Below, in pieces: positions 8,633 to 15,918 of a stretch of 18,954 nt of DNA. The notes under the pieces are model-generated. The model was given only the letters and a program-made list of their open reading frames with translations. It did no database searches and had not been told where the DNA came from. The stretch is from Spirochaeta sp. (GTDB lineage Bacteria > Spirochaetota > Spirochaetia > Sphaerochaetales > Sphaerochaetaceae). The position numbers and the translations under genes were made by a program. Where the stretch lies: positions 1 to 18,954 of the forward strand of contig JAIMZO010000007.1 of assembly GCA_020054965.1 (NCBI GenBank). The letters are read 5' to 3'. How positions within the stretch are numbered: the first letter of the stretch is position 1; every line of letters begins with the position of its first letter.

Positions 8633-8661
8633 TTGAAATAAAATTCTGTGCGTTCTATTAT
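8633..8661 (+). promoter_or_regulatory. metG promoter, implying a leaderless mRNA
   Basis: TTGAAA (8633-8638, five of six) and TATTAT (8656-8661, five of six) have the ideal 17-bp spacing. The expected start is 8668 plus or minus one base, and the metG ATG begins with the A at 8669. No Shine-Dalgarno-like sequence lies between the -10 and the ATG. Confidence 0.7.
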
Positions 8662-8668
8662 ATCCCTT

Positions 8669-10882
8669 ATGAAAAAGAGACTAGTAACTTCTGCGCTCCC
8701 GTATGTGAACAATATTCCCCATTTAGGCAACCTTACCCAGGTCCTGAGTGCTGATGTTTTTGCCCGTTTCTGTCGATTGAAAGGGTATGAGACACTTTAT
8801 ATATGTGGTACCGATGAATATGGTACGGCAACTGAGACACGTGCTCTCAAGGAGGGCGTGAGCCCAAGGGAGTTGTGTGACCGCTATCATGCCATACACC
8901 GTGACATCTATGCGTGGTTCAATATTGATTTTGATTATTTTGGAAGGACAAGCACAGAGGCCCAGACTGAAATTGTCCAGGATATCTTCAAGCGGATGGA
9001 CGCAGCTGGGTATGTCAGTGAGCATGAGTTGGAGCAGCTTTACTGCCCAAAGTGCGAGCGATTCCTTGCAGACCGCTTTGTTGAAGGAACCTGTCCTTAC
9101 TGCCACGCAGAGGGTGCAAGAGGGGACCAGTGTGACAGTTGCCAGACCCTGCTTGACCCTGTTGAGTTGATCGACCCTCACTGTGGTGTCTGTGGTACCA
9201 CCCCGATTGTCAAGAAAACCAAACATCTCTACATCAATCTGCCCAAAGCTCTTCCAATGCTGGAAGCTTGGATGGAGAAGACCAGCAAAGATGGTTTCTG
9301 GGCAAACAATGCCATCCAGGTGACCAAGTCCTGGATCCGCGATGGTCTGAAAGAACGTTGTATCACCCGCGACCTGAAGTGGGGTATTCCTGTCCCCAAG
9401 CCGGGATATGAAGACAAGGTGTTCTATGTCTGGTTTGATGCCCCCATCGGGTATGTATCCATATCAGCCAATGCTACCAAGGATTGGAAGAAATGGTGGT
9501 TCGATCCACAGAATACTGAACTGTTCCAGTTCATTGGCAAGGACAATATTCCCTTCCATACAGTAATTTTCCCCTCCTGCCAGCTGGCAAGTGGGATGGA
9601 TTGGACCATGCTTCATCATATGAGCAGTACTGAATACCTTAATTACGAGGGTGGAAAGTTCAGCAAGAGTCTCGGGATCGGCATATTTGGCAATGATGTC
9701 CAGGACACAGGAATTCCAGCCGATGCCTGGCGGTTCTACATGTTCTACAACCGACCGGAGAAAAGTGATGTTACCTTCACTTGGGCTGACTTCCAGGAGA
9801 AAGTGAATGGGGAGCTCATTGGCAACCTTTCCAACCTGGTCAACCGGACTCTGACTTTTGTGAAACGGTTTTATGAAGATGGAGCCCTTTTCTCAGCACC
9901 CATCGATACTGAGTTGCATGCACAGATTGTAGAACGTGAGAAGAAAATCGATTCATGCATGGAGCGTGCTGAGGAGCGCGATGCACTCAGGCAGATCATC
10001 AGCCTCTCCTCATTGGGAAATAAGGCATTCCAGGACGGCGAACCTTGGAAGATGCGCAAGGAACAACCAGGGAAAGCGATGAGCCTGCTCAAGACCCTCG
10101 TCTATTTGATTCGTGACCTGGCGGTGATGGTACAACCGTTCATGCCGGATACCTCTCTGAAAATGCTTTCCTTCCTTGGTGTTGAGAAAACCAACTGGAA
10201 AGACCTTGGAAACTGGGAAGGGATACAGGGTATCGGCGAGGTTTCACTGCTCTTCACCAAGCTTGAGGATTCGGTGGTTGAGCAGTTGCGTACTCGTTTC
10301 AGTGGCTCGCAGGAAGAGCGGGAACAGAAGAAAACCAAAGAATTGGAGAAAGATATGGATCAGAAAGAGGACCAGGTAAGCCTGGCTGGACAGTTTGCGA
10401 GTCGAGTGATTCTCAAGGTCGCAAAGATTACCAATGTGAAGAGACACCCTCGTGGTGATAAACTCTATATACTTACCCTTGATGTACAGGAAGATGAACC
10501 AAGGACTATTGTCAGTTCCATCGTGCCTTATTACACGGAAGAGGAGTTGCAGGACCAGAACATAGTACTGGTAAGCAATCTCAAACCGGCAAATTTCCGT
10601 GGAGAGAAAAGCTACGGTATGCTGCTTGCAGCCAGTGATCCTGATGCTGAGGAACACACCACCTGTGAAGTGCTCTTCGCACCCCAGTTCGAAGTGGGAA
10701 GTGTGCTTACACCCGAGGGATTTTCTCCGGTTGAGGAAAAGCTCCCGTATGTGAAGGCCGATCACTTCTTCTCCATGCCGATCTATACTGAGTCTGGTGT
10801 AGTGAAGATTGATGGGAAGCCGATCGGAAAAGACGGGATAGTCCTGACCGCAAAGAAATACCTGAATGGCCCGGTAGGTTGA
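8669..10882 (+). CDS. metG: Methionyl-tRNA synthetase, archaeal/eukaryotic type, with tRNA-binding tail
   Basis: Charges tRNA-Met with methionine in the cytoplasm; 737 residues. The class I HIGH motif is PHLGN (17-21) and the KMSKS motif is KFSKS (330-334). Four CxxC knuckles (C126/C129, C142/C145, C155/C158, C172/C175) form a two-zinc connective insert. The catalytic region closely follows the eukaryotic/archaeal pattern (GTDEYGTATET, FLADRFVEGTCP, EYLNYEGGKFSKS, QDTGIPADAWRFY). After a charged linker rich in K, E, D and Q (about 550-572), a C-terminal EMAPII/Trbp111-like tRNA-binding domain follows (about 573-737). The ATG at 8669 gives the usual MKKRLVTSALPYVNN start. A GTG at 8648 lies upstream of the predicted -10 and is rejected. 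No Shine-Dalgarno is present. Confidence 0.97.
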   Translation: MKKRLVTSALPYVNNIPHLGNLTQVLSADVFARFCRLKGYETLYICGTDEYGTATETRALKEGVSPRELCDRYHAIHRDIYAWFNIDFDYFGRTSTEAQTEIVQDIFKRMDAAGYVSEHELEQLYCPKCERFLADRFVEGTCPYCHAEGARGDQCDSCQTLLDPVELIDPHCGVCGTTPIVKKTKHLYINLPKALPMLEAWMEKTSKDGFWANNAIQVTKSWIRDGLKERCITRDLKWGIPVPKPGYEDKVFYVWFDAPIGYVSISANATKDWKKWWFDPQNTELFQFIGKDNIPFHTVIFPSCQLASGMDWTMLHHMSSTEYLNYEGGKFSKSLGIGIFGNDVQDTGIPADAWRFYMFYNRPEKSDVTFTWADFQEKVNGELIGNLSNLVNRTLTFVKRFYEDGALFSAPIDTELHAQIVEREKKIDSCMERAEERDALRQIISLSSLGNKAFQDGEPWKMRKEQPGKAMSLLKTLVYLIRDLAVMVQPFMPDTSLKMLSFLGVEKTNWKDLGNWEGIQGIGEVSLLFTKLEDSVVEQLRTRFSGSQEEREQKKTKELEKDMDQKEDQVSLAGQFASRVILKVAKITNVKRHPRGDKLYILTLDVQEDEPRTIVSSIVPYYTEEELQDQNIVLVSNLKPANFRGEKSYGMLLAASDPDAEEHTTCEVLFAPQFEVGSVLTPEGFSPVEEKLPYVKADHFFSMPIYTESGVVKIDGKPIGKDGIVLTAKKYLNGPVG

Positions 10883-10950: not shown

Positions 10951-10969
10951 AGGGGGGAGGAGCATGAAC

Positions 10970-12013
10970 ATGCGTATCCAGAGAATAGCAACCAGTGAAC
11001 TTTCACCGAGCAGTACAGTGTTCCAAAGCAGCTACTGGGCTGGGGTGAAACAGCACTCCGGGTGGAAGGGCTATGCATTCTCAGTTGAGATGGAGAGCTC
11101 AGCTTTTACACTGCTTGTGCTCGTCAAACGGATGGCTCCTTTCTGTTCCCTCGCATACATCCCCTTTGGGCCCCCGCTCTCATTGCTCAAGCTCAGTCAA
11201 GTGGGTGTATTCTTGGAGGATCTAGCCAAACAGATACGGAAACTTCTCCCAAAAGGGGTGTTTGCACTTCGCTATGACCTGCCATTTGAAGAAGTGAATG
11301 ATCAGAATGTCATGACCTTTCATACAAGAAGGCTCAGGACATTGGAGCAGAGTGTACAACCTGAAGGTACTGTCAGGATAGACCTCAGGTGGGGATACAA
11401 TGCCGTGACACTGGGTTATCGGGAGAGGGCCAAGCGTGCGCTCAGAAAAGCGGAACAAGCTTTCCAGGTAAGGGTGCATGAGGGGGACGAGGCGTCCTTC
11501 CTTGCTTGGTATGATGTGTATTTGGAAACAGCACGAAGGGATGGGTTCAGCCCCAGGTCAAAAAAATATCTTCGTTCCCTGATGATGCTTTCCCCAGATG
11601 AGAGTGTGTTCACATCTCAGCTTTTGCTGGCCTATGAAGGCAAGAAGATTGTCGGGGGGATTATCGTACTGTTCAGTCCATCTGAAGCGATCTATCTCTA
11701 TGGGGCGTCCTTGCGCTTTGATGGCATTTCCTGTTCCTATTTATTGCAGGATAGTGCAATCCGGATGGCTTGTGAGAGAAAGTGTGGAATCTATGACCTG
11801 TATGGAATTCCTGGGCCAAGGGGCAGGGCAAGTCACCTTGCCGGGTTGGAGATATTCAAACGTTCATTTGGAGGACAACCATATTACCGCTCGCCTTCAA
11901 CCGATTATCTCTACAATCGGCTAACCTGGCATTGTTATAGGTTCTTTGAGACAGTCCGGTTTCGTTCAAGAAGGGGCATCAAGAGCCAAGCAGAAGCCCT
12001 ACCAAGTTCTTGA
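10970..12013 (+). CDS. FemX/FemAB-family peptidyltransferase
   Basis: The family uses aminoacyl-tRNA to add amino acids to the stem peptide of lipid-linked peptidoglycan precursors at the inner face of the membrane. The 347-residue size suits a two-GNAT-domain FemABX protein. The most telling part is at residues 273-303, GIYDLYGIPGP followed by HLAGLEIFKRSFGGQ, which matches the conserved YDLWGIP...GLYRFKTGFGG block. The middle holds a basic helix pair (YRERAKRALRKAEQAFQVRV) as in the family. No membrane segment is evident. ATGs at 10964 and 10970 are both possible; the second has GGAGG (10956-10960) at a better nine-base spacing. It converges on murD with a 35-bp overlap, which supports a cell-wall role. 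The amino acid transferred is unknown. Confidence 0.82.
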   Translation: MRIQRIATSELSPSSTVFQSSYWAGVKQHSGWKGYAFSVEMESSAFTLLVLVKRMAPFCSLAYIPFGPPLSLLKLSQVGVFLEDLAKQIRKLLPKGVFALRYDLPFEEVNDQNVMTFHTRRLRTLEQSVQPEGTVRIDLRWGYNAVTLGYRERAKRALRKAEQAFQVRVHEGDEASFLAWYDVYLETARRDGFSPRSKKYLRSLMMLSPDESVFTSQLLLAYEGKKIVGGIIVLFSPSEAIYLYGASLRFDGISCSYLLQDSAIRMACERKCGIYDLYGIPGPRGRASHLAGLEIFKRSFGGQPYYRSPSTDYLYNRLTWHCYRFFETVRFRSRRGIKSQAEALPSS

Positions 12014-13304
12014 ACTGGTTTCCACGGTCGAACTCATTGGCGAACAGTTCAAAGGAAGCACTTCCAGGCGAAAGAAGAATTGCCTGTACCAGATTCGGCA
12101 ACTCCTGTTCCTTCTCGCGAGCCATTTCATAACTCTGTTGCAGGGCATCACCCATTGACTTGAAGGGACCGTAATATGGGATGTGGTGCTTCTCAAGCAG
12201 AGGAATAAGCTTGCCTCTGGTGAAACTTCCATCGAGCAAGGAGAGACTGCTTGCATGCAGTAGTTCCTCAAGCATTCCTTCAGCTTGGAGATTCTTGTCT
12301 GTACCACCACAGATGAGGTGTACAGCCATGGTTCTGTACTTTGCATAGGAGAAGTGCACTGCTTCGGGAATTGTAGCTGCACTGTCATTGACAAACAGGA
12401 TATTGCCAAGCATACCCAATTGTTCGATTCGGTGAGGAACTCCTTGGAAACTCTGCAGGGCCTTAAGAATGCTTTTATATTTGAAACCCAATGCAAGCAG
12501 AATGGCATAGGCACTTCTGAGATGCGGTTGCTCCTCAAGTACCTTTGCGCTTGCTCTTTCAATTCCACGGATATGTCGTTTGTCCAGGTGGGTCTGGGTT
12601 CTTATCCTGCCCAGCATCACATCAGGGATGACCGCCATTTTGATGTTTCTGGTGAATAATTGCAGTTTATCCTCAAGATAGCGCTCTATGGATTCATAGG
12701 AGTTCAGGTGATCGGGATAGAAGTTGGTAAGCGCACAGAGCTCCATCATCGGCAACTGTCCATGCATTGCCTGTACCGTGTCCCGAATTTGCCAGGATGA
12801 GAATTCGCAGACAAGAAATTCGGGCAATGCTCTTCCTTGCTCATTCCGCCTTTCCCACTCCCTGAGAATGCTGAATCCGCTGATCCCCATATTCCCACAC
12901 TGCATTGCCTCGTGCCCATACTCCTGCAGCACATGGGCAACAGCTGCACTGGTTGTGGTTTTTCCTTTGGTTCCTGTGATGCCTATAATCTTTACCTGTT
13001 CACACCAAGGGGAACTGAACAGCCAGGCAAAGTCATTGACTACCATGCGTGCATACTTGAGCATTGGGTGGTTGGGGGGAATGGCTGGGTTCTTGACTAC
13101 AATGTCAGCCCACAGAAAATCTTCTGCCCGATGTGGTCCGGAGATGCACAATGCCCCTCGTTGGTTGAGATCTTCCATCTCATAACCGAGATCACTGGTC
13201 CCCTTCAGATCTGTAATTCTTACTTCATCTCCATGGTCAAGGAAATATGAGGCTGCTGCAAAACCGCCTCCATGCATTCCAAGGCCGAAGATAAGAACCT
13301 TCAT
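11979..13304 (-). CDS. murD: UDP-N-acetylmuramoyl-L-alanine:D-glutamate ligase
   Basis: Adds D-glutamate to UDP-MurNAc-L-Ala in the cytoplasmic stage of peptidoglycan synthesis; 441 residues, the normal length. It has an N-terminal Rossmann-like domain (KVLIFGLGMHGGG, 2-14), the Mur-ligase ATP loop GITGTKGKTTT (108-118), EFSSWQI in the central domain, and a C-terminal domain with CGGTDKNL and LSPGSASFELF. Some motifs are divergent for MurD, for example KNPAIPPNHP where SPGIP is common and FYPDHLN where EDHLD is common. The ATG at 13304 is chosen over an upstream start at 13346 because the N-terminal fold begins there; a G-rich run just before it may serve as ribosome-binding site. A weak promoter candidate is TTGCTC-17-TACTAT at 13327-13355 (minus strand). 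Confidence 0.88.
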   Translation of the reverse strand: MKVLIFGLGMHGGGFAAASYFLDHGDEVRITDLKGTSDLGYEMEDLNQRGALCISGPHRAEDFLWADIVVKNPAIPPNHPMLKYARMVVNDFAWLFSSPWCEQVKIIGITGTKGKTTTSAAVAHVLQEYGHEAMQCGNMGISGFSILREWERRNEQGRALPEFLVCEFSSWQIRDTVQAMHGQLPMMELCALTNFYPDHLNSYESIERYLEDKLQLFTRNIKMAVIPDVMLGRIRTQTHLDKRHIRGIERASAKVLEEQPHLRSAYAILLALGFKYKSILKALQSFQGVPHRIEQLGMLGNILFVNDSAATIPEAVHFSYAKYRTMAVHLICGGTDKNLQAEGMLEELLHASSLSLLDGSFTRGKLIPLLEKHHIPYYGPFKSMGDALQQSYEMAREKEQELPNLVQAILLSPGSASFELFANEFDRGNQFKNLVGLLLGS

Positions 13305-13421
13305 GTGCCACCCCCCGGATGTCTCTATAGTAAAAAGAAAGTGCAATTAGAGCAAGTGAAACGCAACTGAAAGCGCAGGAATTTCACCTAAGAGTATACG
13401 AGAAATTTCCCAAGTTCCCTA

Positions 13422-13450
13422 TTGACGTTGATTTATCTTCCCTGCATAAT
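13422..13450 (+). promoter_or_regulatory. Promoter of the 29-residue basic protein gene
   Basis: TTGACG (13422-13427, five of six) and CATAAT (13445-13450, five of six) are spaced by exactly 17 bp. The predicted start near 13457 gives a leader of about 65 nt. It is one of the best promoters of the window, which fits high expression of a ribosomal component. Confidence 0.8.
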
Positions 13451-13467
13451 AGACCGGTAATTACAAA

Positions 13468-13509
13468 ACCAGTCGTATTCGGGCTCTACCGAAAATAGAG
13501 ACGGTTGGT
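13468..13509 (+). promoter_or_regulatory. Structured mRNA leader of the small basic protein gene
   Basis: ACCAGTCGT (13468-13476) pairs with ACGGTTGGT (13501-13509) through nine pairs including two G-U wobbles. CTCTA (13484-13488) then pairs with TAGAG (13496-13500) around a CCGAAAA loop. The two helices stack on one strand and leave a 7-base bulge on the other. The Shine-Dalgarno AAGGAG begins at the next base, 13510, so folding or protein binding could control initiation. Confidence 0.5.
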
Positions 13510-13522
13510 AAGGAGCGCTATA

Positions 13523-13612
13523 GTGCCTTGTGGAAGAAAAAGAAAGAAGCATAAGATTGCTACTCATAAGAGAAAAAAGAAGCTCAGAAAGAATAGACAT
13601 AAGAATAAATAG
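13523..13612 (+). CDS. COX24/AURKAIP1-like small basic ribosomal protein
   Basis: A 29-residue, extremely basic protein starting at a GTG and beginning MPCGRKRKKHKIATHK, with KKKLRKNRHK near the end. About half the residues are lysine or arginine, with four histidines. The pattern matches the tiny proteins annotated AURKAIP1/COX24-domain in Bacteroidetes and spirochaetes. These are thought to be related to mitochondrial mS38 and similar in style to mycobacterial bS22; a role in the ribosome is inferred from those relatives. AAGGAG at 13510-13515 lies seven bases before the GTG. The gene stands alone between its own promoter and its own terminator, directly before the rpsF operon. It is easily missed because of its length. 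I am confident it is translated, and fairly confident of the family. Confidence 0.85.
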   Translation: MPCGRKRKKHKIATHKRKKKLRKNRHKNK

Positions 13613-13647
13613 TCTGTTCAAGTAGACTTATACTTCGTACAATGTGC

Positions 13648-13675
13648 AAAACCGTCGGTCGCTCCGGCGGTTTTT
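13648..13675 (+). terminator. Terminator after the small basic protein gene
   Basis: ACCGTCGG (13651-13658) pairs with CCGGCGGT (13664-13671), one G-U wobble included, around a TCGCT loop. AAA before and a run of T after (13671-13675) complete a canonical intrinsic terminator. It separates this transcript from the rpsF operon. Confidence 0.9.
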
Positions 13676-13725
13676 CGTATGGAAGTCGTGAGCTGATATA
13701 AAGCTTGATGACAGAATGAGATTTA

Positions 13726-14934: not shown

Positions 14935-14949
14935 CTTGTGTTGGGTGCC

Positions 14950-15918
14950 ATGAACCAGATAGATACAAAGATGCTGAAACAGGTAGGGTTCCTGACAGTG
15001 GTAAGCTACGCGCTTTCTCGCTTGTTGATCGGAAACCTGCTCTTCACCATCCCGCTGATGGTTCTTGCACCGAAGTTTTCCAATCGGCGAGAGGCATTGT
15101 TCCCTGTTGGCTTGGTAGCCGCCTTGTTGGTGATTACGGAGTTTTCCAGGGCAGAAGGGGCCTTAAGTAGCCCCGAAGGACGCCTGTTGCTTGTGATTGG
15201 AATGTTCATCCCGATGGTGCTCTTGGTAGCCAGTGCAGTATGGATTGTGCTGGATGACAGGCGTACATTCTACCGCTATCTTGCCTCATCCATGTTTGGG
15301 ATTGTTGCTTCGGTTGTGGTGGTTATTTGGTTTACAAGACCTAACGAGGCGCTCCAGAGGGTAGACTCAGCAATGTTTGAGACCTTCCGTACGCTCCTCG
15401 AAGGGACAATGGGTGGAACACAACCATTCCTTGAAACACCTGGTGTTGCATTGGAAGGTTTGTACAGGATGTCGGTAATGGCAATAGGGGCCATGTTGGC
15501 TCCGCTCTGTATGGTATTGGTTGGGTTCACGTCTTTCATGGCAATGAGCTACCAAGCCCGGTTCGATGGGACCTTCAATGCACGGGTTTCCCGTTGGAAG
15601 GTACCGGAAGTCACCCTCTGGGTGTTTCTTGGTTCCTGGGCATTGGTCCTCCTGTTGATCCTGGCTAAAGCAACCTACCTGTATAGGGCGCTTGCGTTGC
15701 AAGCAGCACTGGCAAGTAGTGTGCTGTATGCAGTACAAGGAATGGCAATCGTAGTACATGTAGTTTTGCGAAAAGGCATTGCCGTTAACACGACCCGCTT
15801 GTTTCCCACACTGTTCCTCTTGGCGTTCTTGATACCTGGGGTGAATGTACTGGTTGTCTTTGTTCTTCCCTTGTTAGGGGTAACGGAGACTTGGATTATG
15901 TATAGACGTAATGCGTAA
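14950..15918 (+). CDS. YybS-like (DUF2232-type) polytopic membrane protein
   Basis: An integral membrane protein of 322 residues with about eight hydrophobic segments. They include the first at VGFLTVVSYALSRLLIG and the last around LFPTLFLLAFLIPGVNVLVV. Size, topology and position between rpsR and rplI match the YybS/DUF2232 family, whose biochemical function I do not know. In Bacillus this gene is followed by the cyclic-di-AMP phosphodiesterase gdpP before rplI; here gdpP is absent. The start is uncertain: a GTG at 14938 or the ATG at 14950 are both possible and neither has a good Shine-Dalgarno. The stop codon TAA (15916-15918) overlaps the rplI ribosome-binding site, so the two are translationally linked. 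Confidence 0.78.
   Translation: MNQIDTKMLKQVGFLTVVSYALSRLLIGNLLFTIPLMVLAPKFSNRREALFPVGLVAALLVITEFSRAEGALSSPEGRLLLVIGMFIPMVLLVASAVWIVLDDRRTFYRYLASSMFGIVASVVVVIWFTRPNEALQRVDSAMFETFRTLLEGTMGGTQPFLETPGVALEGLYRMSVMAIGAMLAPLCMVLVGFTSFMAMSYQARFDGTFNARVSRWKVPEVTLWVFLGSWALVLLLILAKATYLYRALALQAALASSVLYAVQGMAIVVHVVLRKGIAVNTTRLFPTLFLLAFLIPGVNVLVVFVLPLLGVTETWIMYRRNA

Follow-up and report, generated by a model that had tools for sequence, protein, structure and literature searches.

Positions 13422 to 13675 of the window, by which we mean the whole stretch of 18,954 nucleotides from Spirochaeta sp. that was analysed, raise two questions: whether a frame of only 29 codons, enclosed by a promoter and a terminator, is a gene and for which protein, and what the folded message that would be read from it might serve. 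The features on which the answers depend are as follows.

13422-13450, + strand: sigma-70 type promoter TTGACG-17-CATAAT, 10 of 12 consensus matches
13456-13464, + strand: box GGTAATTAC at the predicted 5′ end of the transcript, with the palindrome GTAATTAC at 13457-13464
13468-13509, + strand: leader hairpin, outer stem ACCAGTCGT / ACGGTTGGT and inner stem TTCGG / CCGAA, ending directly at the Shine-Dalgarno sequence
13510-13515, + strand: Shine-Dalgarno sequence AAGGAG, 7 nt before the GTG at 13523
13523-13612, + strand: bS22 coding sequence, GTG start, 29 codons, TAG stop at 13610-13612
13546-13555, + strand: coding arm GAAGCATAAG of the window's duplex, from the end of codon 8 to codon 11
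13627-13636, + strand: 3′ UTR arm CTTATACTTC, 9 of 10 pairs with 13546-13555
13648-13675, + strand: intrinsic terminator, with a core common to many relatives

The transcription unit and its product

The promoter is the best of five promoter-like sites in 1.5 kb, where shuffled sequences give 1.9, and the terminator stem comprises 11 pairs (AAAACCGUCGG-UCGCU-CCGGCGGUUUU, 13648-13674), which is longer than the 6-pair version given by the scanner. The geometry and spacing of the promoter, from which the 5′ end is inferred, predict a transcript that would be approximately 219 nt long (13457-13675). A preliminary description of this DNA had proposed a complete unit of promoter, AAGGAG, GTG-started frame of 29 codons, and terminator, and each of these elements was confirmed. 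The terminator core GGTCGCTCCGG is nearly letter-identical across many relatives, and its flanks differ.

Among solved structures, a phmmer search with the 29-residue product gave three matches in all at E ≤ 10, namely the Borreliella bS22 (8fmw_V, E = 4.4e-8), the Flavobacterium johnsoniae bS22 (7jil_5, E = 7.8e-8), and an AURKAIP1/COX24 domain-containing protein (9i5v, E = 1.3e-7), and all three alignments run nearly end to end. The earlier reading of the locus as a separately transcribed gene for a small-subunit protein of the mS38/AURKAIP1 kind is borne out. Neither Pfam nor NCBIfam gave a match to the protein at E ≤ 1, and the Pfam family COX24_C (PF08213), against which a search had been suggested, gave no match at E ≤ 10 in any of three genomes of the window's genus. 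Two bS22 peptides from solved ribosomes go unmatched by this profile as well, so that the failure concerns the profile.

With a cut-off of E ≤ 1, 54 of the 60 relatives searched gave a match, of which that in G015 (E = 0.27, with internal stops) is probably due to chance. In the family Sphaerochaetaceae, 123 of 139 genomes have bS22 at E ≤ 1e-4, as do 73 of the 75 good ones (completeness of 90% or more and contamination of 5% or less); most genomes have one strong match, a few have two, and some matches lie at contig ends. The conservation in relatives on which the preliminary description had staked its reading is thus observed, and so is the selection: in the comparison proposed there, 102 distinct bS22 coding sequences gave pS = 0.70 vs pN = 0.06 (dN/dS = 0.03) with the frame conserved, and the window's sequence compared with the others gave dN/dS = 0.04. 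A chance open frame is ruled out by these ratios and by the homology to proteins of ribosome structures. The product is very short (29 aa), very basic, mostly encoded by one gene per genome, and under selection at the protein level, which are traits of bS22. We conclude that the gene is real and that its product, as judged by homology, is almost certainly bS22, a ribosomal protein of the small subunit. The protein itself is of an already known kind, and the window adds a member to a known family.

In Borreliella, bS22 occupies a pocket of the 16S rRNA helices h2, h27, h44, and h45 and touches H68 of the 23S rRNA (PMC10618245), and the same site is described in work on Cutibacterium (PMC10085706); in other bacteria, bS22 is a basic helix that is bent, sits in a pocket of the 16S rRNA, and reaches the large subunit. 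The exact site, which the preliminary description had called poorly described together with the role, is a 30S pocket known by cryo-EM as that of bS22 (PMC10618245, PMC10085706). The Borreliella protein was called analogous to mS38 and eL41 and was the one ribosomal protein that mass spectrometry failed to identify, and its gene, which was previously unannotated, has a GUG start and shows no transposon insertions (PMC10618245). The same paper predicted that bS22 would appear in other species, and the window family and the class-wide start pattern described below bear out its printed prediction that genomes contain hidden bS22 genes, short and with unusual starts (PMC10618245); the suspicion that annotation can miss the gene was justified, and a subunit may be missing from the protein lists of these ribosomes.

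The window's product shares 23 of 27 aligned residues, counted by eye, with the bS22 of Borreliella burgdorferi (bb0822; 8fmw chain V), and the two genes have in common the GUG start and the ease with which they remain unannotated (PMC10618245). The similarity to the F. johnsoniae bS22 (7jil) and to the AURKAIP1/COX24 domain-containing protein (9i5v) also extends end to end at E of approximately 1e-7, whereas the organisms of these two belong to another phylum, and Bacteroidia sequester the 16S tail (PMC9976891); the likeness is one at the protein level. Actinobacterial bS22, mitochondrial mS38, and eukaryotic eL41 are placed at the same ribosomal site by cryo-EM (PMC10618245, PMC10085706), whereas the window's product is placed by sequence homology, and the three sequences that the search matched at E ≤ 10 include none of them. 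The mitochondrial mS38 is longer, and eL41 is shorter and unbent (PMC10618245).

Upstream of the gene, the opposite strand encodes a MurD-like ligase (11979-13310), and downstream follow rpsF-ssb-rpsR-(326-residue frame)-rplI-dnaB; the closest named relatives of the window's rpsF are from Sphaerochaeta and other Sphaerochaetaceae. The position beside rpsF had been regarded as telling in the preliminary description. In the family, bS22 does keep company with rpsF, but not in a fixed arrangement: among 61 rpsF-anchored loci, it lies at most 400 nt upstream in the same direction in 19 and in the opposite direction in 13, it lies farther upstream in 3, and it is not in the fetched flank in 26, of which 8 have a short flank. 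This varied arrangement fits an independent transcription unit rather than a part of the rpsF operon.

The 5′ box and the leader hairpin

The protein being known, what looks new here are the features of the bS22 mRNA in Sphaerochaetaceae, which were obtained by comparison of sequences. The preliminary description overlooked two of them, the conserved 5′ box and the pairing of the coding region with the 3′ UTR. The palindrome GTAATTAC stands 6 to 8 nt past the -10 hexamer in 91 of 116 loci, which are those of 117 distinct loci that have 150 or more upstream bases; other families contribute 8 of the 116 (L014, L020, L024-L027, L029, and L030), and loci collected by rpsF were counted as family by assumption. 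All 91 box loci also have TTGAC, a spacer of 16 to 18 nt, and a NANAAT hexamer. A pattern of box, AAGGAG, and start-proline, which excludes family genomes with longer leaders or different Shine-Dalgarno sequences, occurs once each in 27 of 297 genomes of the class and in none for the reversed control; these are 27 of the 44 family genomes in the set, with 0 of the 253 remaining class genomes.

The outside comparison comprised 60 loci from other families (56 GTG and 4 ATG, each genus represented by one or a few), which were hand-picked by start pattern among the matches listed, so their start codons are uninformative. No box was found within 170 nt upstream in any of these 60 loci, which rules out the box as a general bS22 feature. 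In genome G212, bS22 is located at 867605, which is the published Borreliella start (PMC10618245), and the locus L262 assigned by that coordinate to the Borreliella type differs from the window family in having no GTAATTAC box and in a coding-3′ UTR pairing that is not significant (p = 0.34). Three boxless loci (L043, L044, and L046) have a stretch like TCACGTTGTGA or TTACGTTGTAA within a different hairpin before the Shine-Dalgarno sequence, and their leaders are perhaps a second leader type.

The preliminary description had also proposed a folded leader. The predicted transcript as a whole is well folded (13457-13690, -60.1 kcal/mol, z = -3.5, none of 200 shuffles as low), and its leader hairpin covaries in relatives, but the fold of the leader alone is modest (13457-13530, z = -1.8, 10 of 200 shuffles as low). 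The window's hairpin has a fold of -12.9 vs -7.5 for shuffled sequences, and 82 of 89 box leaders fold below their own shuffled mean, where 2 of the 91 were too short to be scored and the shuffles were mononucleotide shuffles. In a second comparison using 90 of the 91 box leaders (one is without GGAG), of which 77 are distinct, the longest Watson-Crick stem averaged 4.34 pairs vs 3.20 (sd 0.09), and 0 of 300 shuffles were as high. An alignment of 14 long leaders, including that of the window, has changes on both sides in 6 of 12 pairs, and the covariation term of RNAalifold for the leader is small (-0.62 kcal/mol). The hairpin abutting the Shine-Dalgarno sequence hence keeps its pairing while its letters change, and it covaries in relatives with a modest term. 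The leaders of L168 and L181 are too short for a hairpin and consist of the box and the Shine-Dalgarno sequence only. Rfam returned no family at the gathering score and nothing near the cut-off at a relaxed threshold.

Pairing of the coding region with the 3′ UTR

Codons of approximately 9 to 20 pair with the 3′ UTR in the family: with competing structure allowed, 9.16 pairs are expected vs 2.88 after shuffling, and the native value is higher in 83 of 88 loci. The 88 are the box loci, out of 91, that have a stop and downstream bases. A duplex calculation for the same loci, with codons 7 to 20 against the first 34 nt past the stop, gave -14.8 for own pairs vs -9.7 for shuffled UTRs (79 of 88 lower), -10.7 for dinucleotide shuffles (78 of 88 lower, 43 at p ≤ 0.05), and -11.6 for a shuffled coding core (73 of 88 lower). 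With the UTRs of other loci, the energy is -12.9, and 0 of 2,000 permutations were as low, the permutation ignoring relatedness. Between the coding core and the final 34 nt of the leader at the same locus, the calculation gave no signal (36 of 88). The tested stretches were set after the pattern had been noticed, and the outside families and the leader control were run with the same settings.

Relatedness was taken into account with 30 dissimilar representatives, of which 9 reach p = 0.05, with a combined p of 1e-7. Pairing is weak in the family loci that lack the exact box, as 9 of 16 (out of 17 such loci) are below the shuffles and 2 are at p ≤ 0.05. In the other families, 1.90 pairs are expected vs 1.77 after shuffling, 17 of 60 loci are higher, and 4 of 60 are at p ≤ 0.05; the absent group signal rules out the helix as a general bS22 feature.

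The pairing can be followed in the letters of codons 11 to 13, since the 3′ UTR has GCAATCTT where these codons are AAG-ATT-GC and GCTATCTT where they are AAG-ATA-GC. An ATA at codon 12 occurs with GCTATC in 20 loci, ATT occurs with GCAATC in 23, and the crossed combinations do not occur; the other 45 of the 88 loci lack both GCAATC and GCTATC, and 6 of these have TAATCTT. A perfect complement of codons 11 to 13 is present in the locus's own UTR in 25 of 88 loci, compared with a permuted mean of 11.6 and a highest permuted value of 19. On a tree of the metG-like neighbour, however, the codon-12 switch is a single event, so it represents one compensation, and a reading of the ATA/ATT switch as many compensations is ruled out. 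This tree covers 32 loci, as 8 of the 40 fetched were dropped for want of a usable metG-like frame. In the window, the corresponding frame (8648-10882, + strand), which by its sequence looks like that of methionyl-tRNA synthetase, also lies upstream of bS22; in another genus, the metG-like frame is upstream of bS22 in 32 of 40 loci, and many of these frames reach the fetched edge approximately 2.5 kb away.

The window's own helix is in a register other than that of the GCAATCTT/GCTATCTT pairing, with GAAGCATAAG opposite CTTATACTTC, and is marginal (duplex -13.2 vs -9.0, p = 0.069). It has 2.85 expected coding-UTR pairs vs 0.30 for shuffled sequences, and the window's minimum-energy fold is without the coding-3′ UTR helix. 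The comparison establishes the helix for the family and more weakly for this window. A single-gene mRNA design is very probably conserved in the family, in which GGUAAUUAC would stand at the predicted 5′ end, a hairpin abuts the Shine-Dalgarno sequence, and codons of approximately 9 to 20 are paired with the 3′ UTR before the terminator; for the window itself, the case is weaker.

Candidate control of bS22 synthesis

Autogenous ribosomal-protein leaders, such as the 20 candidates of PMC7247131, share with the present mRNA a structured, covarying 5′ leader before the gene for a ribosomal protein; here, the structure is conserved and its covariation is modest. A term search of the main text of that paper gave no occurrence of bS22, S22, or Spirochaet-, and we found no description of a bS22 leader in the open-access papers searched. 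The folded message appears to be a variant of the structured ribosomal-protein mRNA, with a putative function. Pairing of a coding region with the 3′ UTR is, to our knowledge, unusual for autogenous ribosomal-protein leaders.

The best mechanism that we can offer, and we offer it tentatively as less likely than not, is autogenous control by bS22, in which binding to the leader would slow initiation and the coding region would close onto the 3′ UTR. Because bS22 is a small, strongly basic rRNA binder, it could bind the leader. Once bS22 is in excess over its free 16S sites, it may bind its own leader and thus hinder initiation at the Shine-Dalgarno sequence abutted by the hairpin; with no ribosomes melting the short coding region, this region would close onto the 3′ UTR, and the closed message would stay silent or be degraded. 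Together, bS22, the conserved mRNA design, and autogenous control form the explanation of the locus that we judge best, and we hold it as a whole with good confidence. A more specific form, in which the Sphaerochaetaceae bS22 mRNA is a self-closing regulatory RNA, is unlikely: bS22 would recognise the GGUAAUUAC-hairpin leader, and the stopping of ribosomes would let the coding region and the 3′ UTR fold, so that the protein would trigger a collapse of the whole transcript. If this were true, the structure of an autogenous ribosomal-protein switch would take in a large part of the coding region and the 3′ UTR.

Many autoregulatory leaders contain 16S-like sequence. In these leaders, such sequence was not found on comparison with the whole 16S rRNA of one relative (mean best score 7.99 vs 8.13 for shuffled and 8.19 for reversed 16S), and the last 70 nt of the 16S rRNA scored 5.47 vs a mean of 5.56 over 43 windows in a comparison at the sequence level. 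The idea that the leader mimics the 3′ end of the 16S rRNA in sequence, with CGGYUGG before the Shine-Dalgarno sequence resembling h45, thus has no support against shuffled or reversed 16S. The negative result makes autogenous control less likely. Flavobacterium bS21 (rpsU) resembles bS22 in being a late protein of the small subunit that lies near the 3′ end of the 16S rRNA, and control of its own synthesis was shown there (PMC9976891), whereas it is only proposed here; the Flavobacterium control uses an extended Shine-Dalgarno sequence (PMC9976891), whereas that of the window is an ordinary AAGGAG.

It is possible, if rather doubtful, that the folds serve only the stability or the expression level of an abundant short message and that no feedback takes place. 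The 5′ hairpin, the 3′ helix, and the strong terminator could protect a message of 219 nt, and the Borreliella bS22 transcript is reported as highly abundant in fed nymphs (PMC10618245); however, protection needs no coding-region pairing, of which the 60 other-family loci show none as a group, and it leaves the nearly invariant 8-base box unexplained.

That box invites the reading of the palindrome GTAATTAC at +1 as an operator in the DNA, at which a repressor would block the promoter, the mRNA folds being incidental or only stabilising the message. The 8 bases of the box form a perfect palindrome whose distance from the -10 hexamer hardly varies, and L137 and L138, which start with ATG, carry a longer palindrome, GTAAATTTAC, near the same place instead of GTAATTAC. 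The palindrome is not always kept, however, as L021, L134, L157, and L208 retain GGTAAT and have lost the second half, and L012, L057, and L067 deviate in the first half. Among 12 family genomes, 28 boxes lie 4 to 8 nt past TAAT, and 12 of them are at bS22, one per genome; the remaining 16 are near chance (12 for the reversed control), which leaves a regulon-wide operator unsupported and would be odd for a regulator. The box looks private to the bS22 gene. The leader hairpin and the coding-3′ UTR pairing are also left unexplained, and we consider an operator unlikely.

Distinctly less probable is a feedback through the start codon, by analogy with the reading of rpsU by bS21-less ribosomes in Flavobacterium, in which GUG and the hairpin near the Shine-Dalgarno sequence would make a weak message that is read best by 30S subunits lacking bS22. 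The proposal draws on the reported autoregulation through bS21-less ribosomes (PMC9976891) and on the location of bS22 by h44 and h45 (PMC10618245). With a loose pattern of the first eight codons, and chance hits included, a GTG-started copy was found in 238 of 297 class genomes vs an ATG-started copy in 49, while rpsF starts with ATG in 60 of 61 pattern matches at the rpsF-anchored loci, the remaining one being spurious. The 117 distinct loci, mainly of the family, divide into 104 GTG and 13 ATG starts, and GTG is a retained feature of the bS22 gene and no accident of a single genome. This start is class-wide, however, and the mRNA box and helix are not, so that it cannot account for them. 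The strong folding of the transcript could finally suggest a conserved non-coding RNA with a chance frame, but this has practically no probability in view of the purifying selection at the protein level and the homology to proteins seen in ribosome structures.

Autogenous control by bS22 would make this locus a test case for the control of a ribosomal protein that is absent from the E. coli ribosome (PMC10085706), and the message is small enough to be made and probed whole. In the surroundings of the gene, the MurD-like ligase (11979-13310, - strand) has a Mur_ligase_M match, with MurD-like_N just above the cut-off, and is adjoined by a FemAB-like frame (10964-12013). Between rpsR and rplI, the frame of 326 residues (14938-15918, + strand) gave no Pfam or NCBIfam match at E ≤ 1 and has, by eye, the look of a membrane protein.
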